From assembly GCA_015654675.1 (NCBI GenBank), contig JAATGM010000020.1, positions 186,001-250,000 of the forward strand: a stretch of 64,000 bases of DNA, written 5' to 3'. The notes under the pieces are model-generated. The model searched no databases. It saw only the letters and a list, made by a program, of their open reading frames with translations, and was not told the origin of the DNA. Positions 8,925 to 31,214 of this stretch are shown in pieces. A program made the position numbers and the translations under genes. Position 1 is the first letter of the stretch. Each line of letters starts with the position of its first letter. This stretch comes from Planctomycetota bacterium (GTDB lineage Bacteria; Planctomycetota; Phycisphaerae; UBA1845; UTPLA1).

Positions 8925-8925
8925 G

Positions 8926-9816
8926 ATGCATCGCGCGCGGGGATTGTCGCTGCTTGAGGTGCTGATCTCGATCGGCTTGATCGTCATGCTGCTGGCGACG
9001 ATGTTCGGATTCTACGAGCTGGCGCTCAAGGACCGGGATCGCGGACGGCGGACGATGGATCACGGGGAGAAGGCGTGGCTCACGCTGTTCAAGATCGCCG
9101 AGGACATTCGCGCGGCGAACGGATTTGTTGCGACGCTGGGCCCGGGCATTCAGGGATACCGGCAGCAAATCACACTCCAGACGGTGACGATTCCGGACAA
9201 GGAAGTTTTCGCGACGCGGTCGGTGCGCGACAAGCCGCTGCCGGCGCAAAGCGACGTGCGCGAGGTGCGCTATTACGTGGGGCTCGATCCAGACCAGATC
9301 GTGGACTACAAGGACCCCGAATCGGAGTCGGGAGTGAAGCAGGGTCCGAACACGCTGGGGATTGTGCGGCGGCAATTAAAAACTTTTCGACAAACGGCGC
9401 TACAGAACGGGCAAGTCGAGGATTACGACGTCGAGTTGCTGGCACCGGAATTGAAGTACCTGCGGTTCCGGTATTTTGACGGCGTCGAGTGGACGGACGT
9501 GTGGCAGCCGCAGGGCGGCGGGATGGGCAACTCGCTGCCGCAGGCGGTCGAGGTGACTGTGGGTTTCCAGGCGGTCGCGCCGGAAGATCCGAACGAGATC
9601 GACTTTGACACGGCGGACCGATTGGTTTCACAGCCGGAGCCGTACGACCCGGATCGCTATTCGGTGGTGGTGCGGTTGAACCAGGCAGATACATTTTTCG
9701 GGTCGCGGATGATGCGGGCATCGCGGCGGGCGTTCAGCGGTTCCGGGAGCGGATCTGGGGGCAGTCCGGGGTCGGGTTCGGGCGGTAGCGGAAATAGCGC
9801 TTTTGGCGGTTCTTAA
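8926..9816 (+). CDS. gspJ: Minor pseudopilin GspJ-like
   Basis: A minor pseudopilin expected in the pseudopilus tip. ATG at 8926 is chosen because GGGGAG lies five nt upstream and it gives a compact leader, MHRARG|LSLLEVLISIGLIVML, with Glu at mature position 5; the open frame extends upstream to 8827 inside gspI. The mature part has the GspJ-like pattern of DIRAANGF, then VREVRYYVG and LKYLRFRYFDGVEW strands near residues 105-210. The last 40 residues are Gly/Ser-rich. The 296-residue length is somewhat above typical GspJ. It begins one nt after the gspI stop. Confidence 0.82.
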   Translation: MHRARGLSLLEVLISIGLIVMLLATMFGFYELALKDRDRGRRTMDHGEKAWLTLFKIAEDIRAANGFVATLGPGIQGYRQQITLQTVTIPDKEVFATRSVRDKPLPAQSDVREVRYYVGLDPDQIVDYKDPESESGVKQGPNTLGIVRRQLKTFRQTALQNGQVEDYDVELLAPELKYLRFRYFDGVEWTDVWQPQGGGMGNSLPQAVEVTVGFQAVAPEDPNEIDFDTADRLVSQPEPYDPDRYSVVVRLNQADTFFGSRMMRASRRAFSGSGSGSGGSPGSGSGGSGNSAFGGS

Positions 9817-9853
9817 CGCAGCGCCCTAGCGGCGACCCGGTAGAAGGTGGGTG

Positions 9854-11692: not shown

Positions 11693-13337
11693 GCGACTGC
11701 TGGCGATCGACTGGGACACCCTGTCCTTGCGCGTAGTGCAATTCCGCGCGTTGAAGGAGAAGGTGGAGATCCTCAAGGCGCTGTCGGTGCCGATGCCGGC
11801 GGAGATCCGGCAGGATGACGCGGAGTCGCTCGGGGCATTTCTGCGGCAGGCGCTGTTGCAGGCGGGCATCCGGGACAAGCGGGCGGCGCTGACAATTCCG
11901 CGCGAGAAGGTGGTTCTCAATACGCTGACGGTTCCGCCGACTCCGCTGGATGAACTGCCTTCGCTGGTTCAGTTTCAGATTGTGAAAGAGCTTCCGTTCG
12001 CGGCGGACCAGGCGACGCTGGATTTCGCGGTGCGCGGGAATTACGACGCGAAGTTGCCGACGGAGGTGCTGGTCGCCGCGGTGCGGAACGAGGCGATGAC
12101 GTTCTACACGCAGGTGGCGCGCGAGGCGGGGCTGGACCTGCAGCGGGTCGGGCTGCGGCCGCATGCGAACCTGGTCGCGTTTTCGGCGGGGGCGGAAGTT
12201 GCGAAGAGCGGGCTGTGTCTGGCGATCGACATCGGTCCGAGTTTGACGGAGATCAACGTCATCCGGGACGGGGGCCTGGTGTTCTCGCGATCGGCGTCGG
12301 TGCGATTGCCGTCGGCTGCGGAGCTGGGCGTTTCAACCGACACGCTGATCGACAGCCGGATCGTCGGGCACGCGGTTCCGAACATGGACGCGACGACGGA
12401 GACTTTCCGCGACGCGGTCGGGACGCTGATGGTGGAGATCACGCGTTCGATCGAGGCGTATCGCGCGACGGACCCATCGGCGAAGCTGGATCAGATCATC
12501 GTCGCGGGTGCGACGGGTGTTGAGACGACGCTGGCGGAGACTTTGCACCAGCGGCTGGGGGCGCACGCGGAACTTTACAATCCGGGGCTGGCGCTGGACC
12601 TGCCGCCGCAGCGGGCGCGCGAACTGCGCGGTTTCAGCGCGGCGATCGGGCTGGCGATGGAGTTTCACTCGATCGGCCCGGGGCACTTCAATTTCCTGTC
12701 GCCGAAGAAGTCGGTCACTGCGCGCGAGAAGCGGATGCGTCCGGCGCGGCCGGCGGCGCTGGCGGTGATCATGGTTCTGCTGGGGGCGGTGCTGTATCGA
12801 CAGTTCGTGGTGGCGCCGAAGGAGAAAGAGGTGGCGGCGCTGAAGGACAGCATCGCCACGTTGAAACGGGAAGTGAGCGGACCGAACGGCGGAAAGGTTG
12901 ACGGCGTGGAGGCGCTGCGGAAGCGCGTGGCGGCTGTTCAGGGCTGGTTTGACGCGCAGCACGTCTGGACGTCGCGATTGATCCACGTCACACATGCGTT
13001 TCCGTCGGATAAGGATGCGTATGCGACGGCGATCGCGTTCGCGGACCAGCCGCCGGTGATCGAAGTTCAGATGCAGACGAAGCAGTCGGACGTGTCCAAG
13101 CATTTTGTGGATGCGCTGAAGAAGGCGGGGTACACGGCTTCAACCGGGGCGCAGACGGAGTCGGCGAACAAGCTGGGGTATCCGTATTCGGACTCGGTGA
13201 AGATTTTCCTGACGGCGGAAAGCGGCAGGGCACCGGAGACGCCGAAGCCGACGAGCGGAGATCAACCGGCTGGCAGTAAGGGTGACAGCGGCAAGGGTAA
13301 GCCGACGACGTCGGCGCCGGCGGGAGGCGCGCGATGA
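11649..13337 (+). CDS. PilM-PilN fusion (GspL-like) assembly protein
   Basis: Cytoplasmic-to-periplasmic scaffold of the secretion/pilus machine. Residues about 1-350 are an actin-fold PilM-like domain (LLAIDWDTLSLRVVQF near the start, CLAIDIGPSLTEINVI in the middle, IIVAGATG later). A single transmembrane helix lies near residue 370 (AALAVIMVLLGAVLYRQFVV), followed by a PilN-like coiled segment (KEKEVAALKDSIATLKRE) and a periplasmic ferredoxin-like domain. This single-chain layout is what GspL has in type II systems, whereas type IV pilus operons split it into PilM and PilN. The C-terminal 30 residues are Gly/Lys/Pro-rich. It overlaps gspK by 44 nt and the next gene by four nt (ATGA), so translation is probably coupled. 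Confidence 0.86.
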   Translation: MVRRRGALFANLTGKRLLAIDWDTLSLRVVQFRALKEKVEILKALSVPMPAEIRQDDAESLGAFLRQALLQAGIRDKRAALTIPREKVVLNTLTVPPTPLDELPSLVQFQIVKELPFAADQATLDFAVRGNYDAKLPTEVLVAAVRNEAMTFYTQVAREAGLDLQRVGLRPHANLVAFSAGAEVAKSGLCLAIDIGPSLTEINVIRDGGLVFSRSASVRLPSAAELGVSTDTLIDSRIVGHAVPNMDATTETFRDAVGTLMVEITRSIEAYRATDPSAKLDQIIVAGATGVETTLAETLHQRLGAHAELYNPGLALDLPPQRARELRGFSAAIGLAMEFHSIGPGHFNFLSPKKSVTAREKRMRPARPAALAVIMVLLGAVLYRQFVVAPKEKEVAALKDSIATLKREVSGPNGGKVDGVEALRKRVAAVQGWFDAQHVWTSRLIHVTHAFPSDKDAYATAIAFADQPPVIEVQMQTKQSDVSKHFVDALKKAGYTASTGAQTESANKLGYPYSDSVKIFLTAESGRAPETPKPTSGDQPAGSKGDSGKGKPTTSAPAGGAR

Positions 13338-14869
13338 TGAGCCGCGAGCGCCTGCTGGTATTTGTGATCGGCGGACTGATCGGCGTGTGGGCGCTGTATG
13401 GGGCCGTGAACTGGGTGTTCATCAGTCCGCTGCAGACGGCGAATCAGCAGATCAAGAAGCTGGACAAGGAATATCGGGAGCTGAAGGCGCAGCGCGACAA
13501 GGTGAAGGGCTACGCCGAGGATTGGAAGGAGATCGCGAAACGGAGCTATTCGTTCAACGTGATCGATACTCAGAACGCGTTTCAGACGGCGCTCAAGCGG
13601 CTGGCGGCGAAGCATCAGCTTTCGGCGCAGAGCATCCAGAACGCGTCGACCGGGAAGCTGGCCGGGACGGATATCGTGACGGTTACGGCGCGCGTGAACG
13701 GCGAGGGATCGCTGGCGAACGTGGCGGCGTTTTTGCGGGACATCTATCAACTGCCGGTGCTGTTGAATGTGAAGAAGCTACGGTTGTCGCCGGTGAACCT
13801 GCCGGATGGGACGTTAAACGTGCGGATCGGCGAGTTGCTGATCGAGACGATCATTCCGTCGGAGATCAAGAACGCGGTGGACCGGGTGAAGGCGGCGGTG
13901 CGCGGGACCACGACGATGCCGAGCGATCCGGCGCTAGCGCCGAAGTCGCTGCGGGAGGGGCTAGCGAGCGCGGATGAACATGCGCAGATCGCGGCGCGGA
14001 ACATCTTCAAGCCGTATACGCCGCCGCCGTCGTTCGCCGTGGCCGTGGACAACCAGGACCGGGAACCGGTGGAGGTGACGGCGAAGTATTCGTGGGAGGG
14101 GCAAAGCAAGGAGCAACCGAAGGAGTCGGTGGCGGGTAAGAGCAGGCGGGACCTGTCATCGGGGGTGGGCGACAAGGCGGAGATCATGGTCCGGTACAAG
14201 GACGGGAAGACGTTCGGGCCGACCACGCTGGTGTATGCAGCGGGGAAGCCGGCGGTCGTGACGGTTCCGTCGTACACACCCGTTCCGCCGCCGACGGCAT
14301 TTCAATACAAGGTCCGCAACGATGCGGACAAGGCGGTTGAGGTAGAGATCAACATCACGAAGAGCGGGCAGTCGAAAGTGTGGCCGCTCATGAAGGTGCT
14401 ACCGAAGGGGACCATCGACCTGCCGGAGCTGACAGGGGAACGGCTCATGCTGACGGGGGTATACGAGGACGGGTCGAAGTCGGTGCCGGGGACGTATGAC
14501 GTGAGGTCGCAGGCGACGGGGATGTATGTGGTGCCTGTGAAGGTAGTGACAGCGGTCCAGAAGCGCAATGAAGTGATAGTGCTGCCTCCAAGTCCGGACC
14601 TGCAGGTGACTGCACTGCTGACGTATCCGGAGCAGCAGGAGCTGGTCGCCATGAACATCAAGACGCGGAAGCGCGAGATCAAGGCGCGGGGTGAGACGAT
14701 CGACGGCGGGAAGCTGGTCGCGGTGCATCCACTCGGGGGCGTGGTGAAGATGCCGGGCGACGTGTTCTTCCTTTATCCGCTGGGGCAGAAGTTCGACAAG
14801 CGTGTGGAGCTGGATACGCGGGAAGAAGCCGATGTTCCGGCCGCGATTGCGAGGTGGAATCGACAATGA
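13334..14869 (+). CDS. PilO/GspM-like protein with long periplasmic extension
   Basis: Bitopic assembly protein expected to pair with the preceding GspL-like protein. Residues about 8-30 form the membrane helix, followed by a coiled coil (QQIKKLDKEYRELKAQRDKV) and a PilO/GspM-like ferredoxin fold to about residue 185. Near residue 215 the sequence AARNIFKPYTPPP resembles the RN(I/L)F motif that starts the periplasmic part of GspC/PilP. Residues 235-511 are an extra beta-rich region not normal for GspM. A fused GspM-GspC-like protein is therefore plausible and would explain why no separate gspC is seen; this is inference from one motif. Start ATG overlaps the previous stop (ATGA), and its stop overlaps the secretin ATG the same way. 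Confidence 0.72.
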   Translation: MMSRERLLVFVIGGLIGVWALYGAVNWVFISPLQTANQQIKKLDKEYRELKAQRDKVKGYAEDWKEIAKRSYSFNVIDTQNAFQTALKRLAAKHQLSAQSIQNASTGKLAGTDIVTVTARVNGEGSLANVAAFLRDIYQLPVLLNVKKLRLSPVNLPDGTLNVRIGELLIETIIPSEIKNAVDRVKAAVRGTTTMPSDPALAPKSLREGLASADEHAQIAARNIFKPYTPPPSFAVAVDNQDREPVEVTAKYSWEGQSKEQPKESVAGKSRRDLSSGVGDKAEIMVRYKDGKTFGPTTLVYAAGKPAVVTVPSYTPVPPPTAFQYKVRNDADKAVEVEINITKSGQSKVWPLMKVLPKGTIDLPELTGERLMLTGVYEDGSKSVPGTYDVRSQATGMYVVPVKVVTAVQKRNEVIVLPPSPDLQVTALLTYPEQQELVAMNIKTRKREIKARGETIDGGKLVAVHPLGGVVKMPGDVFFLYPLGQKFDKRVELDTREEADVPAAIARWNRQ

Positions 14870-17800
14870 CTACGAAACCGAAAATTCGTCGAGCTTCGCC
14901 GTCGGCGGGTGAGCCGGCCATGTCGCCGCTGGAAGTACCGCTGGGATTCACACTGGGCTGCATTCTGATCATTCTTTGCTCCTCGGGATTCAATGGAGAG
15001 ACTCCGACCAGCGCACCTGAAGTTTCGCAAGCTAGCCCGATTACGACAGCGCCGGCCAAGGGAGCGGGTGAAGCGCCCGCGCCGGTTGCGCCTGTTTTGA
15101 GAATGAGCCCGCCGGGAACTATGCAGGATGATGAGATGCGGCGTCTTCGCGAGCGGGCGCTGGCTTCGACGCGGCCGGCGGCGGGCGCGATTGCCACGCC
15201 ACCTCCGACTAGCGCGCCGGCACCGGTAATCCCGGCTGTGCGACCGACGATGCCAGTGGAGACACGGCCGACGATGCCGAACCGCGCGCCACAACCGATC
15301 TTTCCGCGGCCGCAGGCGGCGAAGCCGACGCCGGCGAGCAGCACGCCGACTTTGACGAGCACGCCGCCGTCCATCGGCGGGGCGCTGGGCACACAGCCGG
15401 CGACCGGCACGAACGGGCACGCGACCTCACTCCCGACTTCGCAGGCGACGACGACTTCGGCGCCGTCGGGGCCGGTGCTGTATTCGTTCAATTACTTCGA
15501 TACGCCGTGGCCGGACATTCTGGATGATTTCTCGCGGATGAGCGGGCTGACGATCATCGGGGACGTCAAGGGCGTGACGGGGAACCTGACGTTCCGGACT
15601 TCGAAGCGATACACGTTCGAAGAGGCGATGGATCAGCTCAATGAGCTGTTGCTGAACCGGACGAGCAAGATGCTGTTGCAGTTGCGGGGGACGAAGACGG
15701 ATGGTTACCTGGTGATCGGGCGGCTGCCGGACCTGATGCGCGAGATTCCGCCGGAGCTGATGTTCAACACGGTGGAGGACTTCGAGCGGGCCGATCTGCC
15801 GCGGTTCACCATGTGCCTGGTGGTCTATACGCCGCCGCCGGGGTGGGCGCCGATCGACATCATTGATCAGTTCCGGACGCGACTGGATGACTACTACGGG
15901 ACGCAGGTCTATGGGGACAAGCTGGTCCTGACGGGAATGGCGCGGGACCACCAGAAGTTTTTTGACATCGTCGATCGGTTCGTGGAGCTGAATCCGACGC
16001 CGCCGACGGTGGACATGCAGTGGAAGACGATCCGGTTGACGAAGGCGAAGGCATCGGACGTGCAGGCGACGCTGCAACGGTTGTATCCGCCGGCGGCTCC
16101 GACAGCGCCGCGGCCGGGCGAGGACCCGGAGGCGCGCAAGGCGAAGGAGATCAACTTTGTCGCCGACCTGACGCACAACTCGATCATTCTCAAGGCGAAC
16201 GATCAGAAGCTGAAAGAGATCGTCAAGGTGATCGGGGAGCTGGACAGCGTTGCTCCGACGCCGGACATGATCACGAAGGTGGTCAAGATCGAGAACGCGT
16301 CGCCGGACGAAGTGGCGAACCAGTTGCGGACGATTTCGCAGAGCGAGAAGGCCAAGGTTTCGCCGACGGCAGCGGAATATATGGCGCCGGATGAAGCGGA
16401 GTCGCGGAAGTGGGACGTGTTCGCGCAGCCGGGGGGACAGTCGATCATCATCATCGGCGGTCCGAAGGGGATCGACCGGGCGATGGAGCTGGTGAAGGCG
16501 CTGGACGTGGCCGAAGTTCCGCAGGCGAAGCGGACGGAGCGATATGTTCTGAAGTACGACGATGCGGCGCAGATTCAACAGATGATGATCGCGATGCTGA
16601 ATCCGCCGGGAGTGGCGATCACGAAAAATCGGGGACTGGTGTTCACGCCGGACCAGATTGGAAATGCGATGATCATCTCGGGGCGCGATTCGGCGGTGGC
16701 CGAGGCGCTGAAACTGATCGAGCAGCTTGATCAGCCGGGGAATGCGAATGACCACGATCATCTGGTGAAGCTGCAGAAGGCGTCGGCGAGCGAGATCGCG
16801 GGCGTTCTCACGCAGATCGCAGCGCCGGGGGCGATGCCGAAGGGCGCCGCGAAGCAGCTGGCGAAGTTCATCCCGTTTGACGCGGGCGGGTATTTGATGG
16901 TGCGGTGCAGCGACGAGGAGTGGCCGCGGTTCGAGCAGATTGTGAAGGACCTGGACGGTCAGACGGTGGATGTGACGCCGACACTGCGGACGTTCAAGCT
17001 GCAACATGCGGATGCGAACGAGGTGGCGGGGATCCTGCTGCCGATGTTCCAGACTAACGTGCCCATGAAGAAGGGGCAGGCGCCGCCGATGCTCAAGATC
17101 ACGCCGGACGCGCGGGACAATACGCTGAGGGTGTGGGCGACGGCGGAACTCATTGACCGGATCGCGGCGATGATTCCGGAGTTGGACATCGCCTCGGAGC
17201 AGGGTCGGGTGCAGGTCATCAAGCTGACCAATGCCGACGCGGCGCAGGTGGCGACGGTGTTGAGCGCGACATTCGGGCCGGGGGCGCGGCCGAACGCGCC
17301 GGGCGGACCGAATGTGGCGGCGGCGATCAAGATTACGGCGGAGCCGATCACGAATTCGCTGCTGGTGATCGCGCCGAAGAGCGAGTTTGAGCAGATTCAG
17401 AAGATTGCGTTGAGCATGGATGTGGACGCGGAGAAGAAGCGGAATTTGCGACTGCCGGTTCCGGTTCGAAATCTTCCGGCCACCGAAGTCGCGGAGACGC
17501 TGAAGCAACTGATGACGCCGGCGGCGGGGCCTGGCGCGAAGCCGGGCGAGCAACCGGTGAAGATTGTTGCCAGCGGCGACATGGTGATTCTGGACGGGCC
17601 GCAGGACTCGGTGATGAAGGCGTTCGAGCTGATGGGGGCGATCGACGTGATACGGGCCGGGCGCGAGGTCCGGCAGTATCGCGTGACGGATGCCGAGGAA
17701 GCGGCGAATGCGCTGAAGATGTTGATGAGTGGGTCATCAGCTAGCGGCAAGGGCGGGGCGGTTGGCGCAGTGACCGCGGCGCTGGCGGGAACGACGCAGG

Positions 17801-20800
17801 TTTATGCGGATACGTTCCGGAATCTGCTGATCATCCATGCGCGGCCGCTGGACTTTCCGGAGATTGAGCGACTGGTGAAGGCGATTGAGATGGATCCGCC
17901 GGAGTCGCAGCCGGGGGAGCCAACAGGCGGGCCGGGGGAGTGGGGTGTCATTCACCTGAAGAATTGCGATGCGCGGGACATCATTTACGACCTCGAAGAT
18001 ATCTTCGCGCCGAAGGGCGTGAAGAACCCGCCGGAATTCAAGACCGGGCCGAGCGACAAGATTCTGCTGTACAAGAGCAAGCCGCGCATCGTGCCTGAGA
18101 TCGAGAAGATGGTGAAGATGTTTGATGTGCCGATGGCGGGGTCGGACGACCCGAAATGGGCGACCAAGCTTGTCAAGGACGGCATGTCTGCGAGCGATGT
18201 GGCGCGACAGTTGGCGGTCTCGCTGGAGAGCGAGACGGGGAAGCGGGTTGAAGTGCAGACGATTCCGATTGGGATCGACATCATCGACATTCACGCGGAT
18301 GAAAAACCGGCGGCGCAATCGTCGCAACCGTCAGACAGTCGTGGCATGCCGTGCGTCCTGCCAGCCAGTTTGGTGAGGCTGGTGGGCTCACTAGCGATTG
18401 GGCAAGCGACGAGCGAGCCAGCGGAGAAGGACAAAGCGGCTGACGAGGAGCCGGTTCGCATCATGCAGACTTCCGACGGGAAGTTGATCTTCACGGGACC
18501 CTCAGCGCGAGTCAAACGGCTGCAGGAGCTGTACGACGATCTGGCGAAGGAGGCGGATAAGCAGAATTCGGTGCTCAAGATTTTCCCCATTAAATACGCT
18601 CCCGACGTCGATCAAGTGGCGCAACGACTGGAGATGGTGTTCAACGGGCGACCCAGCGTGCCTGTTGCCGTTCAGCCGCAGAACCCTCAGCAGGGGCAAC
18701 CGAATCAACCCAACGCAGCAGGCGGGCCGAACGCGCCGGGTGGCGCGCCCGGAGGCGGTGGTCGAGAAAGGCGGCAGACGAGTCGTGCGACTCCGGCGGC
18801 GGCCCCAGCAGCAAACTCACGGATTCAGGTGGTGGCGGATACTCGGACACGGCAATTATTTGTTCGGGCTGTGTCGGCTGACTTTCCGCTGATCATCGCG
18901 GTACTGAAGGTACTCGATGTCGAGTCGCGGACCGCGAGAAGCTTCAAGATTTTCGAGCTAAAGAACCTGAATGCGGAGGCGACCGCTCAGACGCTGCGCG
19001 ACACGCTCGACCTTAACACGCGCGGCGGCCCAATGGGAATGAATGCGGGCGGTGGGCGGCGGTTTGCGATGCAACAGGGCATGCAGCCGGGGCCGGACGG
19101 TCAGCCGCAGGGCAATCCCGGTCAGCCGCAACCAGGGCAGATTCCAGGGCAGAACCCTCAGCAAGGAATGGTGGCATCGGCCGAGACGACGACGATTACC
19201 GCGGAGCCGCAGACGAACTCGATTCTGGTTTCAGCGCCACCTGACACGATCAAATTCATCGGTGACATGATCGAGAAGCTGGAGGCGCAGCAGAACATCC
19301 AGCAGGCGACGATGAAACGCGTGCCGCTACAGTTTGCGCGAGCGAGCGAGATCGTCACTGTGCTGAAGGACATTGTGCAACGGACGTCAACAATGTCGGG
19401 CGGTGGCGGGGGGCCAGGTGGGCGCATGGGGCAGATGGGCGGCGGAGGTGGCGGTGGTCGTGGCAGCGGGGCGCAGGTTTCGATCAATGCGGATCCGCGA
19501 ACGAACAGCATCGTGCTCGCCGGCGCAAAGAGCGAGGTCGAAAATGCGGAAGAAATCATTAAGAGCCTTGACGTCAACACGGGCGACACGGGACAGATCA
19601 AGATTGTGCCGGTGAAGGGTGATGCGGCGGCGATGGCGACTTCGCTGAAGGAAATGTATGCGAAGCCGGGCGCGGCCGGTGCGCAGTCGGACGTCGCGAT
19701 TACTGCTGATGCGGCGACCGGGAATTTGCTGGTTCGTGCGCCACCTCAGACGCAGGCGGAGATACTTGCGACGATTCGGGAGATGGAGAAAAAGGTCGCG
19801 TCGGCCGAGCCGCGAATGATCAAGCTGGCTCTGGCGGACGTGGATTCGGTGGCGAAGAAGCTGGAGGCCATCTTCGCGGAGAAGGGCAAGCAGGGCGGCG
19901 GGAAGCTGAAAATCACTCCGATCGCGTCGACGAAATCGATTGCCGTGCAGGCGTCGGATGAACTGTATCGGGAGATCGAGAAGGCGGCCAAGGACATGGA
20001 TGTCCAGAACATGGACATCACGATCAAGCACTTCCGGCTGAAGAATGCCAAAGCGGTCGAGGTGGTGGACAAGATGAAGGACCTGCTCGCCCAGGTCGTG
20101 GCGCGGATGCAGGGCGGGCAGGCGGGCGATCTGAATCTCGGGCTATTTTCGTTTACGCCCGATCCGTTGACGAATTCGATTGTCGTGGTCGGTAACCCGA
20201 TGACGTTCGTGGTCGTGCAGAAGCTGCTGGATTCGCTGGACGTGGAGCCGAGCACGCTGACGCAGCGCGAGGTCCGCAGCTACGTATTGAATCCGAATGT
20301 GAATGCGGCGCAGGTGGCGGGGAATATCGGGCAGCTCTTCGCCGGCATGCCGCAGGATAAATCAGGGATACCGGCGCCTAGCGTGACGAGCGAGCCGAAC
20401 AGCAACATGGTGCTGGTGACAGCGACGGCGGCGCAGCACAAGGATATTCAGGAGAAGATCATTGCTCCGATTTTGGCACAGGTTTCTCAGGCGCCGAAGC
20501 AGTTCACGGTTCCGCTGAAGTTTGCGCGGGCGGACGAGGTGGCGACCACGCTCAACAACTATTTCAGTCAGTGGAAGACCAACCAGGGGAACAAGCCGCA
20601 GGACACGATCACGATTGTGCCGGACCTAAACGCGAACGTGCTCCTGGTGACGGCCAATGAGACGATGAAGAAGCTGTTTGACGAGCAGCTGAAGGGCCTG
20701 GACGTCGCGGCGCAGGAAGCGGGTCTGCGCGTGACGCGTACTTACCAAGTCAAGATCGCGGACCCCAACTCAGTCGTCAACATGATCAACAACAACTTCG

Positions 20801-23800
20801 CGCCGCAAGGCGGCCGGCAGCCATCACCGCGCGAGCTGGTGAAGGCGGCGGCGGACTGGGCGACGGGGAGCATTGTCGTCACGGCGTCGCCGGAGAAGCA
20901 GGCGGAAATCGCGAAGCTGATCGACGAGCTCGACAAGGCGACCGATACGGCGCGGACGACGCACGTGATCGATGTTTCGAAGAACGATGCGCGCGACGTG
21001 GCCACCACGCTCACGACCATTTACAACCAGAAACAGAAGACGCGGACCGGCGCTGCGCCGGTGACGATCAGCGCGATGCAGGGGTCGAACAAGATCATCG
21101 TGAACTGCAACGAGACGGAACTCGCGGAGATCGTGGGGCTGGTGAAGCAGATCGAGGAGGGCGGCGGGTCGCGACTGGTGCACGTGGTGACCATGCCCGA
21201 GCAGGTGAAGGCGAAGGCGGTGGCGGACTCGATCAGCAAGTTGTTTGCGAACCAGGCCGGGCCGGGGGGGCAGGGCGTCAAGGCGGAGGCGAATGACGCG
21301 ACGAATACGGTGCTGGTGTTCGCGACGGAGGATGAGTTCAAGAAGATCAATGCGGTGATTGAGAAGCTGGCAGAAGTACCGCCCATGGGGGCCGTCAATA
21401 ACTACTTTGTGCGGCTCAAGTATGCGGTGGCCGACAAGGTCGCCCGAACTCTGGACGATTTCTTCCGGAGCAAGCAGGGGCTGACGAACCAGACGGGTGG
21501 GCGATTTTTTGATGGAGGCGCTCCGCCGACGGAGAAGGCGCTGGAAGATCGAGTGACGGTCAAGGCAGAGGCCGGCTCGAACATGCTAATCATCGCATGC
21601 ACCGAGGGAACCAAGAAGGTGATCGACAAGATCATTGAAGAGATCGACACCGATCCTTCGAAGAGCGGCGGGAATGCTCTGGAGATGATCAAGCTGAAAT
21701 ACATCGAAGCCGCCGACATGATGTCGATTCTTGAGAATTACCTGAGGGTTGCGAACAGTACGACGACCGAAGATCCGCAGGCTAGTTTGCCGTGGTGGAT
21801 GCGTGGCCAGACGGAGAAGCAGGAAGAGAAGACTGTGCTCGTGGGTGATACCCGGTTGAAGGCGATCGAATCGATGAACACGATCATCGTGGTCGGCAAG
21901 CCAGAGACGATCACAAAGATCAAGGAACAGGTAGCACTATTGGACCGCCCGGACAACAGCGGGACGTCGAACACCAAGATCATCCCTTTGGCGAACGCCA
22001 ACCCAGCGCAGCTCGCCCCGACACTCACGAAGATTTTCGCGGAGAATGGCCAAGCGAGCGTTGGAAAGGGACAGAGTTACCGAGCGCCGGTGATTTTGGC
22101 GGACAGCACAACGCGGAGCTTGATCGTGCGGGCCGGACCCACGGAGATGCCGGCGATCGAGCGGATGGTGGCGGATCTGGATCAAAAGTTTGGAATCGAT
22201 CCGCCGACGGTGCGAACCATCAAGCTACCCAATGGAGTTGATACTGAAGAGATTGCGAGAATTGTATCGAAGCAGCTTAACGACGCAGAAAAGCAGAACC
22301 AGGCGAAGTTGAAAGACTATCAGCCAGACACCGTGTCTATCGAGCCCGACGCGCGGTCGAACCTGCTTGTTGTTGCGGCTTCGAAATCGCAGTTCGAACA
22401 GGTCACTCGACTCGTTGATCTGCTCGTGCAAGGCAAGTCCGGCGGCGGAATGGGCGTGTCGGTCATCAAATTGAAGTCTATGCGGCCGGAGGATGCGAAA
22501 AAGCTGATCGAGGACATGAAGAATCGTCGATCGGGCGCGCGAAGCGATGCGCGCGAGCGACGAGAGTATCGGCTGAATGGACGCGAAGACGAAGTTCCGG
22601 CGCGGCCGAGCGGCGTGCGATTTTCGCCACGATATGCGATGGTTGCGTCCGCCATACTAAGCGCGGCCATGGCGCAGACGACAACTGGCCAGGCGACACA
22701 GCCGGAGGGGCAGCGGCCTGCTGTTTCGACGATTCGACCGGCGGCACCGGTTGTCGCGCAGGGCGCCGCGCCGCATGTTGCCACGCCACTGACTTCGTCA
22801 CCTTCGGGCATCATGAGCGCCCAGCTATCGGGTGCGCCGCTGACCATACAGACGGGCCCGGATGGCTTGATCGTGATCGGAAATGAGGAGGATCGAGCGG
22901 TCATTGCGCAAATGATGGCGTTGTTGGATGAGCAGGTGCCACATGCAACGATCGAGTATGTGCCGCTAAAAAACGCTCAGGCAGTCGCGCTCGCGAAGTC
23001 GCTAGCGGAGGTCTATCAGAAAATTGATCAGGCGAGGCCACAGGGCGTGCAGGCGCGGCCAGAGGAGAAGGTGGCATTAATCGCTGACCCTCGAACGAAT
23101 GGACTATATATTGCAGCCACTGAGTCGAAGATTCCGGAAGTGAAGGCGCTGATCGAAAAGAGCGACCTGACGCCGACGATTCCGCAGAGCGGGACGCGGA
23201 CGTTTGTGTTGAAGCATCGGCGGGTGCGGGACGTGGAGCCGACGCTGAAAGCGGTCATCCAGCAATTGTTGAAGAAGCAGGGGATTACCGATCAGAACAC
23301 GATCGGCATTACGAAGGACGACCAGGTCAACTCCCTGTTTGTGACGGGCGGCGAGAAGGACCTGGATGAAGTTGGCAAAGTCATCGATACGCTGGACAAG
23401 CCGCCGCCGAAGGCGGAGGACGAGGAAGAATCGATCAACGTCGGGTCGGCGGACATCATGGTGATTCCGCTGCGGGTTGCGACGGCGGACAAGCTGGCGG
23501 CGGCGCTGAACAAGCTGATTACGGATGCTTCGAAGGGGGAGACGCCGACGAAGGATTTCATCCGGCGGTTGCGGGTTTTGGATGAGAGCGGGAAGCCGAT
23601 CGCGGATTTGCGGCTGGACGGGCCGACGTTTGTCGTTGCGGATGTCGAGAGCAATTCGGTGATCGCGGCGAGCACGCGGAAGAATCTGCTGGTGCTGAAG
23701 GCGATCATCAAGCAATTCGACGTGGAGCCGCTGCGCGAGCCGGCGGAGCTGAAGGTGCGGCCGTTGAACTTCGCGGATGCGACGGAGATCGCGGACGAGC

Positions 23801-26800
23801 TGAAGAAAATGCTGGACGAGGCGAAGAAGCTTCCGTCGCGGGCGGGGAAGTCGGATGCGCCGGGTGGCGTGCCCGAGGGCGGGGCGGGCGTACTGGTTTA
23901 CAACACGGTAGTGACGCCTGATCCGCGGACGAACTCGATCGTGATGATCGGCAAGCCGGAGGCGGTGGCCGTACTCGATGATTTGGTGGCGAAGATCGAC
24001 GTGCGCGGGGTGGGGCTGATGCCGTTCGCGATCATCAAGCTCGAGTATGCGAGCGCGACGGCGATGGAGAGCGTGCTGGACGACTTGATGAAGAAGCGGG
24101 CGGACGCGCTGCCGAAGGGGACGAGCGCGAATTCGAGCAAGAGCGAGACGGTGATCATCAAGGGCGATCCGCGGGCGGAGACGCTGATTGTGGCGGCGCG
24201 GGCGGATCGGATGGCGGAGATTCGCGACCTGGTGTCGAAGCTGGACGTGAAGGCGCTGGCGCTGATCGACAATATCCGAACGATTCAACTGACGAATGGC
24301 AATGCGGCGGACCTGGCGAAGAAGATTGACGACCTTTGGACGAAGCGGGCCGAGCAGAAGCAATCGGGGAATGTGAAGCTTGAGAAGCCGGCGATTGTTG
24401 CGGACGAGCGGAGCAACTCGCTGGTGGTGGCTTCGGCGAAGGGGGATTTTGAGGCGATCGAGTCGCTGGTGAGAAAGCTGGAATCGCTGCCGTTCGGGCC
24501 GATTGCGGAAATTCGGATCGTGCAGCTTCGGTACAACTCGGCGAAGGAACTGGCGCCGGTGTTCAAGAAGCTGTTTGACGAGCGGGCCAAGCAGCGCGAG
24601 GGAACCGACGGCAAGACGCGGCCGACGGACATGGTCGCGATCGAGAATGATCCGATCACGAACTCGATTCTCGTGGCGTGTTCGAAGGAGAACTTTGAGC
24701 TGCTGACGCAGATGCTGAAGACGCTGGACGTGGAGGCGGGCGTCGCGGGCGTGGCGGACATGTTCGCGCTGCGGAACGTCGAGGCGCAGCGGGTAAAGAA
24801 GACGCTGGACGACGTATTCAAGGACGGGCTTTACAAGCCGGGCGGTGGGGCGGCGGACAGCACGAACGCCAAGACGCGCGAAAAGGTGACGGTGGCGACG
24901 GAGGACCGGTCGAACACGCTGATCGTGTCGGCGAGTCCGGAGAACATGAGCATTATTCGGAAGATCGTTCAGCAGATGGACGATGTTTCGACGCCGTGGA
25001 ACCTGACGAATACGCGGTTGTTCCAGTTGCAGTATGCGGATGCGGTGAAGCTGGCGGCGCAGTTGCAGGACTACTTCAAGAAGCTGGACGAGTCGGCGGC
25101 GAAGATCACGAAGGAGTCGACCGAGGTTCCGATCACGATCATCGCGGATGACAGGACGAACCGGCTTCTGGTGGGCGGGACGCGGGATGGGCTGGCGAAG
25201 GCACAATCGCTGATCAAGGACCTGGACGTGCCGCCGGAGCCGAGTTCGACGATTCAGGTTTACCGGCTGCATGACGGGTCGGCGGCGAAGATCGGGCCGA
25301 CGCTGGAGGCGATATTCAAGGATCGGAACCAGCCGCGCGGGGCGGGCACCGGGACGACGGTTCAGAATGTGCCGGTGACGATCAAGATCGACGAGACGAG
25401 CAATGCACTTGTTATCAGCGCTTCGCGCGAGGACCAGGCACTGATCAAGAACCTGGTGGAGCTGCTGGACCGGCGCTCGAACATTCTGGAGCAGGTGCGG
25501 CTGTTTGCGTTGAGCAAGGCGCGGGCTGACGCGATCAAGAAGATTATCGAAGAGCTTTACAAGGGCGGCGGGACGAGCAGCGGCGGGACGGGCGGCACGA
25601 GCGGCGGTTCGAATGCGCTGCCGGTGGCCGTGACAACTGATCCGCGGACGAATGCGATCGTGGTGGCGGCGCCGCCGGGGGAAATGGAGAACATCGCGAA
25701 GCTGGTTGAGCGACTGGATTCGGCCATGCCGATTGACGAGGCGCAGATCGGCATCTTCGTGCTCGAGAACGCGGACGCGAAGAAGACATCGGAGCTTCTG
25801 AAAGACATCATGGCGGGGAACATTCCGACGAGCGGGGGCTCGGGCGGGGGGAGTAGCGGCAGCAGTTCGAGCGGGCAGCGCGAGCTGGGGTCGATGCTGC
25901 TGTCATTCATCAAGACAGACGCGAAGGGTCGCGAGGCGTTCTATAAGACGATTCGCGAGAACGTGCAGGTTACGTATGACGAGCGGACGAATGCCGTCAT
26001 TGTGGTTGCGCCGCCGACGAGTGTCGCGCTGGTGAAGAACCTCGTGAAGACGCTGGACGACAGCAAGAAGCGCGAGGTTCTGGTGCGCGTGTTCATGCTG
26101 CGCAACGCGGACGCGACGAAGACGGTGGAGTTGCTCGAAAAGATTTTTGCGCAGGACAAGGCGTCGGCGGATCAGGCGGCGTTTCAGGAGGGTCGCGAGA
26201 TCAAGGTTGAGGGCGGGACGGCGACCGTGGGCGGGCCGACGGCGGCGTCGCAGGGTGGCGTGCAGGGTAAGGGGACTTTCGGCAAACCGAAGACGACGTT
26301 TACGCCGGATCAGCGGACGAACAGCGTGGTGGTGGCGGGCTGGCAGGAAGATATTGATGTGGCCGGCGACATCATCGACCAGCTTGATTCGCAGGACATC
26401 CGCGACCGGATCAACATGGTTTATTCGCTGCAGAATGCGAAGGCGGAAGACGTGGTGACTTCGCTGGACAGCTACTTCCAGAAGCAGACGAGCATATTGG
26501 ATAAGCAGGAAGGTCTCTCGCCGGCGCGGAAGGCGGAGCAGGAGGTTTCGGCGGTTGCTTACAAGCAGAGCAACCAGCTCATTCTCTCATACAGTCCGCG
26601 ATACCAGGCGCAGGTGCTGGACATCGTGCGGCAGCTCGATATGCCGCCGCCGCAGGTGATGATCCAGGTGTTGCTGGCGGAAGTGAATATCGACAACCGG
26701 TTTGAGTTGGGGATGGAGTATGCGCTTCAGAATCTGCGATTCAGCGAGACGGCGGTGGCCGGTCCGAACGGGACGCTGCAGAGCGATCACTTTGACGTGA

Positions 26801-27894
26801 TCGGCGGGACGGACCTGGGTGCGGCGGCGTCGAGCGGCGGTCTGGGCGGGTTCTCGTTCACGATTACGGGCGAGGACTTCAACTTCCTGGTGCGAACGCT
26901 GCAGAGCGACTCGAAGCTCGAAGTGCTGCAGCGCCCGATGATCATGTGCCAGGATAATCAGGACGCGTCGATCAACGTCGGACAGAGCGTGCCGTTCCTG
27001 ACGGGAACGCAGGTGACGAACGCGGGGCAGGTGAACAGCCAGATTCAGTATCAGGACATCGGCGTGAAGCTGGCGGTGACGCCGCACATCAATCCGGACG
27101 GCTTCGTGTATATGAAGGTGAAGCCGGAGATTTCGCAGATCACGCCTTCGACGATCAATATCGGAAATGGAATTACGGCGCAGATCTTCAGCAAGCGCGA
27201 TGCGGAGACTTCGGTGGTCGTCAAAGATGGCGAGACCGTGGTCATCGGTGGACTGATTACGACGTCGGAGCAGGAGGCCGAGAACAAGGTTCCGATTTTG
27301 GGCGACATGCCGGCGATCGGGGCACTGTTCCGGGCGACGACGCGGAGCAAGACGAAGACGGAATTGCTCATCGTGCTGACGCCGCGGGTGATCCGCACGG
27401 TTGAAGATGCGCGGCGCATGAGCATCGAGAACCGGGATGTGACGTCGGTGCTGACACAGGAGCAGAAGCAGAGCGTGCTGATGAATGGTCTGCGGCTGAC
27501 GCCGGAGTCGGACGTTGAGGCGATCGAGGATTCGCAGCAGGAGCCGGTGCCGGCCCCGCCGCCTCAGCCGCCGTCTCCGGACGATCCCATGATGCAGCCG
27601 GTGAGCTCTGCACGGCCGGCGGGCGGGGCTGTCCCTCCGACGATGATGGGTGACGCGACGTATGGTCCGTTTGCGCCGGAGTACGGGCCGTTTGGGGCGA
27701 ACAAGCCATCGGCGCGACCGGCTTCGACGGTTATCCCGGCGAGCACGAATGCGCCGGCGACGACCATCACCCCAGCGCGGAATACCTCGACCTGGAATTC
27801 GCCGGCGTCGCCGGAGTTTGCGGCGCCGCCCGCGCAGGGGACGGAGACGTTGGAAGCACAACCGCTAGAGCCCTATGACCCCAAATCGCCTTAA
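14866..27894 (+). CDS. Giant secretin (GspD/PilQ type) with about 40 tandem N1-like domains
   Basis: Outer-membrane secretin subunit of extraordinary size, about 4,342 residues against roughly 650-750 for ordinary GspD. Order: N-terminal hydrophobic export segment (LGFTLGCILIILCSSGF), a Pro/Thr-rich linker to about residue 200, an N0/STN-like region (YSFNYFDTPWPDILDDF, about 205-380), some 40 N1-type (secretin N/NolW) units from about 385 to 3,930, the C-terminal secretin barrel domain (about 3,930-4,185, with NVGQSVPFLTGTQV, VVVKDGETVVIGGLI and KVPILGDMPAIGALF), and a Pro-rich tail. ATG at 14866 overlaps the preceding TGA and has GAGGTG about eight nt upstream; ATG at 14854 is also in frame. 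Two internal stretches near residues 1,165 and 2,596 look like leftover signal peptides. No stop or frameshift interrupts 13 kb, so the gene appears intact. Confidence 0.95.
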   Translation: MTTKPKIRRASPSAGEPAMSPLEVPLGFTLGCILIILCSSGFNGETPTSAPEVSQASPITTAPAKGAGEAPAPVAPVLRMSPPGTMQDDEMRRLRERALASTRPAAGAIATPPPTSAPAPVIPAVRPTMPVETRPTMPNRAPQPIFPRPQAAKPTPASSTPTLTSTPPSIGGALGTQPATGTNGHATSLPTSQATTTSAPSGPVLYSFNYFDTPWPDILDDFSRMSGLTIIGDVKGVTGNLTFRTSKRYTFEEAMDQLNELLLNRTSKMLLQLRGTKTDGYLVIGRLPDLMREIPPELMFNTVEDFERADLPRFTMCLVVYTPPPGWAPIDIIDQFRTRLDDYYGTQVYGDKLVLTGMARDHQKFFDIVDRFVELNPTPPTVDMQWKTIRLTKAKASDVQATLQRLYPPAAPTAPRPGEDPEARKAKEINFVADLTHNSIILKANDQKLKEIVKVIGELDSVAPTPDMITKVVKIENASPDEVANQLRTISQSEKAKVSPTAAEYMAPDEAESRKWDVFAQPGGQSIIIIGGPKGIDRAMELVKALDVAEVPQAKRTERYVLKYDDAAQIQQMMIAMLNPPGVAITKNRGLVFTPDQIGNAMIISGRDSAVAEALKLIEQLDQPGNANDHDHLVKLQKASASEIAGVLTQIAAPGAMPKGAAKQLAKFIPFDAGGYLMVRCSDEEWPRFEQIVKDLDGQTVDVTPTLRTFKLQHADANEVAGILLPMFQTNVPMKKGQAPPMLKITPDARDNTLRVWATAELIDRIAAMIPELDIASEQGRVQVIKLTNADAAQVATVLSATFGPGARPNAPGGPNVAAAIKITAEPITNSLLVIAPKSEFEQIQKIALSMDVDAEKKRNLRLPVPVRNLPATEVAETLKQLMTPAAGPGAKPGEQPVKIVASGDMVILDGPQDSVMKAFELMGAIDVIRAGREVRQYRVTDAEEAANALKMLMSGSSASGKGGAVGAVTAALAGTTQVYADTFRNLLIIHARPLDFPEIERLVKAIEMDPPESQPGEPTGGPGEWGVIHLKNCDARDIIYDLEDIFAPKGVKNPPEFKTGPSDKILLYKSKPRIVPEIEKMVKMFDVPMAGSDDPKWATKLVKDGMSASDVARQLAVSLESETGKRVEVQTIPIGIDIIDIHADEKPAAQSSQPSDSRGMPCVLPASLVRLVGSLAIGQATSEPAEKDKAADEEPVRIMQTSDGKLIFTGPSARVKRLQELYDDLAKEADKQNSVLKIFPIKYAPDVDQVAQRLEMVFNGRPSVPVAVQPQNPQQGQPNQPNAAGGPNAPGGAPGGGGRERRQTSRATPAAAPAANSRIQVVADTRTRQLFVRAVSADFPLIIAVLKVLDVESRTARSFKIFELKNLNAEATAQTLRDTLDLNTRGGPMGMNAGGGRRFAMQQGMQPGPDGQPQGNPGQPQPGQIPGQNPQQGMVASAETTTITAEPQTNSILVSAPPDTIKFIGDMIEKLEAQQNIQQATMKRVPLQFARASEIVTVLKDIVQRTSTMSGGGGGPGGRMGQMGGGGGGGRGSGAQVSINADPRTNSIVLAGAKSEVENAEEIIKSLDVNTGDTGQIKIVPVKGDAAAMATSLKEMYAKPGAAGAQSDVAITADAATGNLLVRAPPQTQAEILATIREMEKKVASAEPRMIKLALADVDSVAKKLEAIFAEKGKQGGGKLKITPIASTKSIAVQASDELYREIEKAAKDMDVQNMDITIKHFRLKNAKAVEVVDKMKDLLAQVVARMQGGQAGDLNLGLFSFTPDPLTNSIVVVGNPMTFVVVQKLLDSLDVEPSTLTQREVRSYVLNPNVNAAQVAGNIGQLFAGMPQDKSGIPAPSVTSEPNSNMVLVTATAAQHKDIQEKIIAPILAQVSQAPKQFTVPLKFARADEVATTLNNYFSQWKTNQGNKPQDTITIVPDLNANVLLVTANETMKKLFDEQLKGLDVAAQEAGLRVTRTYQVKIADPNSVVNMINNNFAPQGGRQPSPRELVKAAADWATGSIVVTASPEKQAEIAKLIDELDKATDTARTTHVIDVSKNDARDVATTLTTIYNQKQKTRTGAAPVTISAMQGSNKIIVNCNETELAEIVGLVKQIEEGGGSRLVHVVTMPEQVKAKAVADSISKLFANQAGPGGQGVKAEANDATNTVLVFATEDEFKKINAVIEKLAEVPPMGAVNNYFVRLKYAVADKVARTLDDFFRSKQGLTNQTGGRFFDGGAPPTEKALEDRVTVKAEAGSNMLIIACTEGTKKVIDKIIEEIDTDPSKSGGNALEMIKLKYIEAADMMSILENYLRVANSTTTEDPQASLPWWMRGQTEKQEEKTVLVGDTRLKAIESMNTIIVVGKPETITKIKEQVALLDRPDNSGTSNTKIIPLANANPAQLAPTLTKIFAENGQASVGKGQSYRAPVILADSTTRSLIVRAGPTEMPAIERMVADLDQKFGIDPPTVRTIKLPNGVDTEEIARIVSKQLNDAEKQNQAKLKDYQPDTVSIEPDARSNLLVVAASKSQFEQVTRLVDLLVQGKSGGGMGVSVIKLKSMRPEDAKKLIEDMKNRRSGARSDARERREYRLNGREDEVPARPSGVRFSPRYAMVASAILSAAMAQTTTGQATQPEGQRPAVSTIRPAAPVVAQGAAPHVATPLTSSPSGIMSAQLSGAPLTIQTGPDGLIVIGNEEDRAVIAQMMALLDEQVPHATIEYVPLKNAQAVALAKSLAEVYQKIDQARPQGVQARPEEKVALIADPRTNGLYIAATESKIPEVKALIEKSDLTPTIPQSGTRTFVLKHRRVRDVEPTLKAVIQQLLKKQGITDQNTIGITKDDQVNSLFVTGGEKDLDEVGKVIDTLDKPPPKAEDEEESINVGSADIMVIPLRVATADKLAAALNKLITDASKGETPTKDFIRRLRVLDESGKPIADLRLDGPTFVVADVESNSVIAASTRKNLLVLKAIIKQFDVEPLREPAELKVRPLNFADATEIADELKKMLDEAKKLPSRAGKSDAPGGVPEGGAGVLVYNTVVTPDPRTNSIVMIGKPEAVAVLDDLVAKIDVRGVGLMPFAIIKLEYASATAMESVLDDLMKKRADALPKGTSANSSKSETVIIKGDPRAETLIVAARADRMAEIRDLVSKLDVKALALIDNIRTIQLTNGNAADLAKKIDDLWTKRAEQKQSGNVKLEKPAIVADERSNSLVVASAKGDFEAIESLVRKLESLPFGPIAEIRIVQLRYNSAKELAPVFKKLFDERAKQREGTDGKTRPTDMVAIENDPITNSILVACSKENFELLTQMLKTLDVEAGVAGVADMFALRNVEAQRVKKTLDDVFKDGLYKPGGGAADSTNAKTREKVTVATEDRSNTLIVSASPENMSIIRKIVQQMDDVSTPWNLTNTRLFQLQYADAVKLAAQLQDYFKKLDESAAKITKESTEVPITIIADDRTNRLLVGGTRDGLAKAQSLIKDLDVPPEPSSTIQVYRLHDGSAAKIGPTLEAIFKDRNQPRGAGTGTTVQNVPVTIKIDETSNALVISASREDQALIKNLVELLDRRSNILEQVRLFALSKARADAIKKIIEELYKGGGTSSGGTGGTSGGSNALPVAVTTDPRTNAIVVAAPPGEMENIAKLVERLDSAMPIDEAQIGIFVLENADAKKTSELLKDIMAGNIPTSGGSGGGSSGSSSSGQRELGSMLLSFIKTDAKGREAFYKTIRENVQVTYDERTNAVIVVAPPTSVALVKNLVKTLDDSKKREVLVRVFMLRNADATKTVELLEKIFAQDKASADQAAFQEGREIKVEGGTATVGGPTAASQGGVQGKGTFGKPKTTFTPDQRTNSVVVAGWQEDIDVAGDIIDQLDSQDIRDRINMVYSLQNAKAEDVVTSLDSYFQKQTSILDKQEGLSPARKAEQEVSAVAYKQSNQLILSYSPRYQAQVLDIVRQLDMPPPQVMIQVLLAEVNIDNRFELGMEYALQNLRFSETAVAGPNGTLQSDHFDVIGGTDLGAAASSGGLGGFSFTITGEDFNFLVRTLQSDSKLEVLQRPMIMCQDNQDASINVGQSVPFLTGTQVTNAGQVNSQIQYQDIGVKLAVTPHINPDGFVYMKVKPEISQITPSTINIGNGITAQIFSKRDAETSVVVKDGETVVIGGLITTSEQEAENKVPILGDMPAIGALFRATTRSKTKTELLIVLTPRVIRTVEDARRMSIENRDVTSVLTQEQKQSVLMNGLRLTPESDVEAIEDSQQEPVPAPPPQPPSPDDPMMQPVSSARPAGGAVPPTMMGDATYGPFAPEYGPFGANKPSARPASTVIPASTNAPATTITPARNTSTWNSPASPEFAAPPAQGTETLEAQPLEPYDPKSP
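16006..26650 (+). repeat. Tandem array of about 40 N1-type domain repeats inside the giant secretin
   Basis: Protein-level repeats averaging 88-89 residues (about 266 nt). Each unit starts with a strand such as IKLxxADA, has a helix (ExVAxxLxxLF), a variable Gly/Pro/Gln-rich loop, then a motif like DPRTNSIVV or DERSNSLVV, and ends about 20 residues later in (I/L)xxLD. I counted 40 units by eye; a few (for example those near 17.6-18.2 kb and 18.2-18.6 kb) are degenerate, so the count may be off by two or three. Units are diverged at DNA level, so this is an old expansion. The variable loops carry the low-complexity inserts (18.7-18.8, 19.0-19.2, 19.4-19.5 and 25.8-25.9 kb). Confidence 0.88.
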
Positions 27895-28654
27895 TGAGAT
27901 TGCGCTGACCGGGCGGACGGCCGGCCGAGCCCTTGAAAAGCTCGGGCCAGCCGCCGCCCTTTTTTTTGTATTCGCGTTTTCGGGCTGCATGCAGAACCAG
28001 AGCGGGCAGTTCATCCCGATGTGGGCGCCGCCGAAGGACACATCCGAGCCGCCGCCGATCGTTCCGAAAAAAATGGAATCGGTTCCAGCGCCCGCAGACG
28101 ATGCGAACATTGTGGGGGTGCGGAAGTTCATCTCGCAGGAGCCGTGGCTCAGTTTCAATCAGGAGGGGCTGCGGCAGCCGGAGGGATTCAAGGCGACCTT
28201 GTATCTTGAATCCGGGACGACGGGGCGCGGCGCGTTCGGGGATGGGACGATTCGGATCAGCGTTTATACGGTTGAGCGCGATTCGAAGGGCGAGCGGTTG
28301 AAACTGGCGAAGCGGTGGGAGATATCGCCGCAAGACTCGATTCCGTGGCGGGCGCGGCGGCCGACTCAGCTTGGGTGGGGGTATGGCCTGCGTTTGCCGT
28401 GGGGGGAGGCGAAACTGGGTGGTAAGGAGGTTGAATTCGTATTTCAGTTCGTGCGAAAGGACGGCGCGATGCTGTCGGCGGAGCCGATTCGAATGAAGGT
28501 GCCGCCGAAGAATATGCGGATTGTGACACGCGAAGATCCGCAGGACGGGACGGCCGCGGACGAGTCGCCGCAGGCGCCTGCGCAGCAGCCGGCAACGCCT
28601 CAGCCGGCGGTACGGCGGCGGGTTTCAAAATCTTTGCCGGCGGAGCCACAATAG
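27875..28654 (+). CDS. Secretin-linked lipoprotein of unknown function (possible pilotin)
   Basis: A 259-residue protein not recognised as a known family. Seen: a hydrophobic stretch near residues 24-36 ending in the lipobox FSGC (Cys38), so it should be lipid-anchored; a beta-rich body (about 75-220); and a Pro/Gln/Ala-rich tail. Its start overlaps the end of the giant secretin by 20 nt, so the two are translated from one message. A small lipoprotein coded beside a secretin often acts as a pilotin that carries the secretin to the outer membrane; that role is inferred from position only, and no pilotin motif was identified. Confidence 0.75.
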   Translation: MTPNRLNEIALTGRTAGRALEKLGPAAALFFVFAFSGCMQNQSGQFIPMWAPPKDTSEPPPIVPKKMESVPAPADDANIVGVRKFISQEPWLSFNQEGLRQPEGFKATLYLESGTTGRGAFGDGTIRISVYTVERDSKGERLKLAKRWEISPQDSIPWRARRPTQLGWGYGLRLPWGEAKLGGKEVEFVFQFVRKDGAMLSAEPIRMKVPPKNMRIVTREDPQDGTAADESPQAPAQQPATPQPAVRRRVSKSLPAEPQ

Positions 28655-31172: not shown

Positions 31173-31214
31173 GACGTACTACCGGGGGCTGAATCCATGA
31201 TATTGGAGGTGCCG

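Follow-up and report, generated by a model that had tools for sequence, protein, structure and literature searches.

A giant GspD-type secretin with about 41 N1-type units closes a type II secretion operon in Phycisphaerae

The giant secretin gene in the window (the whole stretch of 64,000 nucleotides analysed here) encodes an N0-like domain, about 41 N1-type units and a secretin barrel on one chain, and it closes a type II secretion system (T2SS) operon that runs from GspF to GspM and then D. We consider it probable that the protein is a T2SS outer-membrane GspD enlarged by multiplication of the N1 domain, forming a continuous conduit of rings in three blocks with half-domain joints. A sequence-only reading had proposed a giant secretin with about 40 N1 units, which the count bears out; it had overlooked that two joints carry inserts, that the gene is split in relatives and that it lies in a T2SS operon. 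The features are listed in Table 1.

Table 1. Features of the giant secretin and its operon (window coordinates)
Feature	Position	Strand	Basis
GspF, T2SS inner-membrane platform	5133..6332	+	PF00482, E 1e-57
GspG-like major pseudopilin (presumed name)	6375..6830	+	prepilin-type N-terminus read in translation
Minor-pseudopilin-like genes, presumably GspH (6833-8110), GspI (8061-8924) and GspJ (8827-9816)	6833..9816	+	prepilin-like N-termini, order
GspK	9851..11692	+	PF21687, E 7.4e-10
GspL/PilM-like	11649..13337	+	PF11104 PilM_2, E 8.5e-25
GspM-like, 511 aa, extended C-terminal part	13334..14869	+	PF04612, E 2.3e-4, below cutoff
Giant secretin GspD, 4,342 aa	14866..27894	+	frame, Pfam, NCBIfam and unit HMM
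Predicted N-terminal signal sequence	14866..14991	+	hydrophobic stretch, residues 24-42
N0-like domain	15478..15735	+	hhalign 97.8%; Pfam N0 below cutoff
N1-type unit directly after N0	15799..16005	+	profile-profile alignment; missed by unit HMM
Block A: N1-type units 1-9	16030..18129	+	unit HMM
Joint 1: N1 unit broken by long insert, PCVLPASL motif	18130..18582	+	half-unit matches
Block B: N1-type units 10-24	18583..22425	+	unit HMM
Joint 2: N1 unit broken by long insert	22426..22959	+	half-unit matches
Internal signal-peptide-like segment, AxA end before Q	22624..22674	+	counterpart in 15 of 15 family proteins examined
Block C: N1-type units 25-38	22960..26643	+	unit HMM; units 33-38 modelled
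Secretin barrel domain PF00263	26899..27396	+	Pfam
Lipoprotein-like gene overlapping the secretin 3' end	27875..28654	+	lipobox-like N-terminus by reading

Domain architecture and operon setting

The 13-kb frame had been described as intact, and translation meets no stop within 14866-27891, leaving 4,342 uninterrupted codons; the secretin start codon, an ATG at 14866, shares bases with the stop of the GspM-like gene. The Pfam Secretin_N model matches 32 stretches of the window protein at an E value of ≤0.01 (1031 bits summed). An iterated HMM built from the units of the protein itself detects 38 N1-type units, and again 38 when rebuilt from 61 proteins; a single copy of that set with shuffled residues gives 0 matches. 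Both counts lie far above ten units, the floor that the sequence-only reading had set. The total of about 41 is obtained by adding to the 38 units the one directly after N0, which was found solely by profile-profile alignment, and two further units with long inserts (residues 1089-1239 and 2521-2698), which were detected as halves only. The half matches in the window protein are weak at joint 1 (E values of 0.046 and 0.017) and better at joint 2 (0.021 and 3.3e-5).

The expected standard barrel is present at residues 4012-4177 (Pfam ID PF00263; E value of 7.5e-52; 175.8 bits against a cutoff of 27.5), and the protein passes the NCBIfam equivalog model for GspD (TIGR02517) with 1070 bits against a cutoff of 351. 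The models for PilQ (434 against 284) and YscC (341 against 238) are exceeded as well, because repeats inflate the scores. An AMIN domain before N0 is a mark of PilQ, and none is found among the Pfam matches of the window protein at an E value of ≤0.01. The N0 domain stays below the Pfam cutoff in the window protein (E values of 0.27 and 0.036) and is matched by Pfam in one of 15 family members. A profile of these 15 members aligns to the N0-N1 region of 11 ordinary secretins with a probability of 97.8% (hhalign; E value of 7.1e-13), and of 98.2% with one 3,109-residue giant added; the N0-like domain and the next N1 cover residues about 205-385, ahead of unit 1.

Structure prediction of consecutive units, an earlier suggestion, was performed with AlphaFold2 on units 33-38 plus the barrel (20 sequences, one chain). 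The N1-type fold, beta-alpha-beta-beta-alpha, is predicted for six of the six modelled units, with extra elements in units 36-38, followed by a secretin-like barrel region, and the best solved matches to the model are GspD secretins (E value of about 1e-26). The mean pLDDT is 68.9 and the pTM 0.35, and the geometry between domains is not fixed by a one-chain model. Compared with GspD over all domains, the model reaches TM-scores of 0.23 (query length) and 0.34 (target length) at an rmsd of about 20 Å, and the stacked arrangement is not reproduced. The model supports the predicted domain fold and not the relative placement of the domains.

In the operon, the gene that we take to be GspG was named from its translation, and the GspH, GspI and GspJ names are likewise presumptive; homologues of these three minor-pseudopilin-like genes occur in identical order in split-gene relatives, which have a T2SS operon too. 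The extended form of the GspM-like protein is present in 14 of the 14 family loci examined, and its conserved C-terminal part (about 300 residues) has no convincing Pfam match. A GspC-like domain in this part was considered and rejected, with no convincing match in Pfam or the PDB. GspC is the usual partner of N0, a partner and not a feature of the secretin itself; a search of the window's own genome with PF11356 gave no match at an E value of ≤1, and a divergent GspC is possible. The lipoprotein-like gene has a homologue in all 14 family loci examined and no Pfam family at an E value of ≤1; that it encodes a pilotin would be a guess. Elsewhere in the genome, the T2SSE/PilB ATPase family has thirteen matches, and four more secretins score above the Pfam cutoff, with open frames of 515-775 codons.

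With the PilM-like platform protein in this operon, the secretin could also serve a pilus or a planctomycete crateriform structure as its base in place of a secretion channel, and the crateriform structures of Planctopirus are reported to carry fibres and join both membranes (PMC5394234). Such a base is improbable, since the operon holds GspK, the GspM-like protein and the minor-pseudopilin-like genes, since Mucisphaera and other described Phycisphaeraceae are said to have no crateriform structures (PMC8882080), and since 14 of the 17 named records of Planctomycetia, Gemmata included, have secretins of 4-10 units (of the other three, one is cut and two are giants).

Three further genes of the window are recorded here as side observations. 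The gene at 29472-30746, downstream of the secretin, reads by eye as a fusion of a vitamin K epoxide reductase and a DsbA-like domain, and a homologue is found in 7 of 14 family loci, the stretches of which end nearby; it is perhaps linked to the cysteines of the joint-1 insert. The gene at 31125-33356 shows, by reading, tandem repeats and DxDxDG calcium-type repeats followed by an anchor-like C-terminal end. The 1,433-residue protein at 47282-51583 has weak STAND-NTPase matches and no PADLOC match at an E value of ≤0.01.

Distribution and split-gene relatives

Homologues of more than 2,000 residues had been suggested as a further search in Planctomycetota, and they occur in the class. In the family of the window protein, 15 of 17 genomes (its own included) have open frames of 4,289-5,207 codons, while the other two frames (1,184 and 1,952 codons) lie on contigs of 8,445 and 11,634 bases, too short for a full-length frame. 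Across Phycisphaerae, 42 of the 198 genomes examined carry a matching frame of at least 3,000 codons (matches at an E value of ≤1e-40). The 44 single-frame proteins of the class that were examined have a median of 39 units (range, 20-61), the largest being a Phycisphaerae protein of 6,165 residues and 61 units (L071). The closest named record is a Phycisphaerae bacterium with 67% identity. Outside the class, the phylum survey gave frames of up to 1,495 codons among the matches listed, and the secretins of Planctomycetia are mostly 1,100-2,300 residues long. Records titled Planctomycetia (L126) and Planctomycetaceae (L127) contain giants, with 37 and 39 units in the stretch analysed; these records may have been misnamed by their depositors, or such proteins may also exist outside the class. 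Intermediate secretin sizes are seen elsewhere in the phylum, in two Gemmataceae (L115 and L153) with 1,968 and 2,321 codons and 10 and 8 units.

Before counting, L054 (probable misassembly) and G552 (run of N) were dropped, as were L057, L063, L067 and L081, which are cut by the end of the contig or stretch; L063 was retained for the class unit counts. L054 (G413, 3448500-3462000) has an RpoB-like start (by eye) and a secretin end and is probably a chimeric assembly.

The giant secretin is not an assembly artefact. Repeats are prone to misassembly, and a misassembled array or a decaying gene would be the obvious objection; it deserves almost no credence, because the window units average only 26% identity to one another (maximum, 43%), because all 38 of them find their best matches in order, at 37-80% identity, in a genome of another genus (G402; L031), because the single-contig genomes G393, G404 and G405 carry the gene, and because 15 of 17 family genomes have frames of this size. 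The 13 kb without a stop and a pN/pS ratio against G402 of 0.46 overall (0.21 over residues 3901-4200, with synonymous sites near saturation) also speak against this objection. In the more distant L037, 30 of 38 units keep their order, which beyond the family can mostly no longer be resolved except near the barrel. The sequence-only reading had named fewer than ten units or an assembly artefact as the outcomes that would count against it, and neither holds.

In four families of the same order (f102, f105, f106 and f108), the secretin gene has only 12-15 units, and the remaining units are found on one or two genes directly upstream. Each of the split chains starts with a signal-peptide-like segment (by eye), and the four upstream chains tested, from three genomes (two from G408, one from G474 and one at L119), all match Secretin_N and not Secretin at an E value of ≤0.001. 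The complete split cases are 24+14, 24+14, 9+14+14, 22+12, 24+12, 23+14, 27+14, 23+14 and 54+14 units, with totals of 34-41 in eight of the nine and 68 in the ninth; the cut cases G411, G415 and G417 were left out of these totals and used as junctions, G417 and G411 each giving unusable short ends. The ninth case (L055 + L097; G412), with 6,806 residues, is the largest set here. Unit totals of 20 to 68 in Phycisphaerae weaken a strict ruler idea.

The two inserts of the window protein separate blocks of 9, 15 and 14 units, a division similar to that of the three-gene case, and family members mostly have 8-9, 14-19 and 14-15 units between inserts, with two deviating. L117 and L119, from another part of the class, break elsewhere, with 24 units and the barrel downstream and upstream chains of at least 14 and at least 13 units (cut by the end of the stretch). 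Family f104, which is also fused, has long gaps at different unit positions. A quick barrel-domain tree (66 rows) requires three or more changes to explain the split state, two of them by the starred branches alone; these changes may have been fusions or fissions.

Half-domain joints and a possible trans-periplasmic tube

As judged from the chain ends, each gene break falls inside an N1 domain. The upstream chain ends in an N1 beta-alpha half, often followed by an Arg/Gly/Ser-rich tail, and the downstream chain begins with a signal-like segment, a linker and then a beta-beta-alpha half. Fourteen junctions were examined, with ends of fewer than 25 residues excluded. The C-half HMM matches the downstream heads at 12 of 13 usable junctions (E value of ≤0.02; shuffled heads, 3.3%). 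The N-half HMM matches 9 of 11 upstream tails (E value of ≤0.05; shuffled tails, 0.6%), one of the nine (G408, first junction) being part of a whole weak unit and five others sharing residues with a C-half match; at the downstream heads it gives 0 of 13. The positions of the gene breaks correspond to the long inserts in the window's family, and in L034 the full-unit HMM matches across joint 2 in a single hit that encloses the insert. The PCVLP motif of joint 1 is present in 11 of 15 family proteins.

Joint 2 of all 15 family proteins examined contains a hydrophobic segment with a small residue before Gln, preceded shortly by Arg or Lys in 14, with Ala at position -1 in 13 and Gly in two. The search pattern (small-x-small-Q) was loosened after the sequences had been seen, and the Gln is thus present by construction; without the demand for Gln, the segment ranks first among the charge-free candidates of the chain in 13 of 15 proteins, second in one and sixth in one. 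In the window protein, a Q candidate in joint 1 scores above it. The segments have a mean hydrophobicity of 1.88 (12-residue maximum), compared with 0.51 (s.d., 0.64) for random windows and 2.49 for N-terminal signals, a comparison of chosen segments with random windows that is biased in the segments' favour. A simple signal-peptide rule was discarded as too coarse: under its strict form, 4 of the 15 family proteins have a match in joint 2, as does 1 of the 46 others. A structure model of joint 2 was dropped as well, the alignment having set the signal-like segment on another helix.

The segment sits between the unit halves, at the site where split relatives carry a signal peptide, which suggests that the fused genes keep a lookalike of the third chain's signal peptide. 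It may now be no more than a relic, may contact a membrane or may still be cleaved. If it is cleaved, the product would be a polyprotein that signal peptidase cuts at joint 2 (AxA before Q) and perhaps at joint 1, giving a three-chain tube as in the split lineages; in the rings at the joints, N1 domains would be rebuilt from one half of each of two chains, and this split-ring lock would set the order and length of a roughly 100-nm channel. We regard such processing as conceivable and rather doubtful.

Under the preferred reading, a GspD enlarged into a continuous conduit, 12-15 copies of each N1 unit most likely assemble into one ring, by analogy with known secretins. About 41 N1 rings and the N0 ring would then reach from the inner-membrane platform to the barrel over roughly 100 nm, with 105 nm for a ring pitch of 2.5 nm and up to about 170 nm for one of 4 nm; these lengths, and some 7 MDa for a complex of 15 copies, are calculated from assumed values. 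The sequence-only reading had likewise predicted 80-120 nm, 15 subunits and roughly 7 MDa. The rings would fall into three blocks (N0 plus about 10; about 15; 14 plus the barrel), which sister families would make as separate exported proteins. Adjacent blocks would be locked together by a joint ring in which the N1 domain is composed of the beta-alpha half of one chain and the beta-beta-alpha half of the next, and in the window's family the chains are fused, with a long loop at every joint. We infer a secretion function for the assembly.

The linkers between units have a median length of 10 residues in giants and in ordinary secretins alike (gaps of <40 residues only; 1,724 linkers from proteins with at least 25 units and 69 from 34 ordinary secretins). 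This ordinary linker length, the N0-like domain at the far end and a unit total that is largely kept across the order, be it on one, two or three proteins, are the best available sign of a continuous ring stack. The linkers also bear on a different arrangement, in which assembly as in ordinary GspD is confined to the rings near the barrel, and some thirty further N1 domains trail through the periplasm as flexible tethers, contacting the inner membrane, attaching to peptidoglycan or catching substrates. Several units do contain long Gly/Ser/Gln-rich loops, the model has low inter-domain confidence, purifying selection is strongest by the barrel (pN/pS of 0.21-0.27) and weaker at the base (0.56-0.67), and the units near the barrel best keep their order between families (L055). 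However, linker length equals that of ordinary secretins, the far end carries an N0-like domain, and a tether needs no separate exported N-only chains with half-domains at the breaks; we therefore judge the tethered arrangement unlikely.

A conduit of this length would fit a deep envelope. The sequence-only reading had assigned a deep periplasm to planctomycetes in general, which is in print for Planctopirus, Gemmata and Rhodopirellula, whereas no measurement for Phycisphaerae was found in the portions of the literature available. Two other envelope families, taken as gauges of envelope depth, gave no support: MlaD has two matches, in frames of 364 and 454, of which one exceeds the cutoff and one does not, and TamB has none.

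Comparison with known systems

The giant array hints at export across an unusually deep envelope. A real stack of this kind would far exceed the six-ring PilQ in length and would indicate the depth of the periplasm in a poorly known group. The giant secretin makes it testable how a secretion machine fits the depth of its envelope and how a pseudopilus could act over some 100 nm, and the split-gene relatives offer a natural experiment in the mutual recognition of stacked rings. The half-domain joint, if true, would be a new way of splicing a tube. Among the matches listed in our literature search, which covered few subscription journals and preprints, no description of such giant secretins was found.

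The closest known system is GspD (for example PulD, XcpQ and E. coli GspD), which shares the N0 domain, the N1-type domains, the barrel and the T2SS operon and provides the best PDB matches of the window protein by both sequence and fold. Ordinary GspD has three N1-type units, whereas the window protein has about 41, two insert-bearing joints and an extended GspM-like protein beside it, and GspC was not found (PF11356).

The sequence-only reading had allowed known secretins at most three N1-type domains, which is too low. PilQ of Thermus thermophilus forms six rings, N0-N5, with a length of 350 Å and spans most of a wide periplasm; its authors tie the ring number to this wide periplasm and count PilQ among the largest characterised secretins (PMC5745081). 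PilQ shares the extra stacked N rings, but it belongs to the type IV pilus and has 757 residues and six N rings, compared with about 42 (N0 included) predicted from sequence for the window protein.

In the Tad pilus, a separate periplasmic ring complex of RcpC is reported to extend the secretin RcpA toward the inner membrane (PMC12307814). A secretin prolonged by a separate periplasmic complex resembles the split-gene systems, but RcpC is anchored by a transmembrane helix, whereas the split relatives are prolonged by the N1 domain of the secretin itself, and half-domains lie at their joints.

The secretins of Planctomycetia come from the same phylum and likewise have several extra N1 units (4-10). 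They differ in being far smaller in most records, the giants L126 and L127 being perhaps misnamed.
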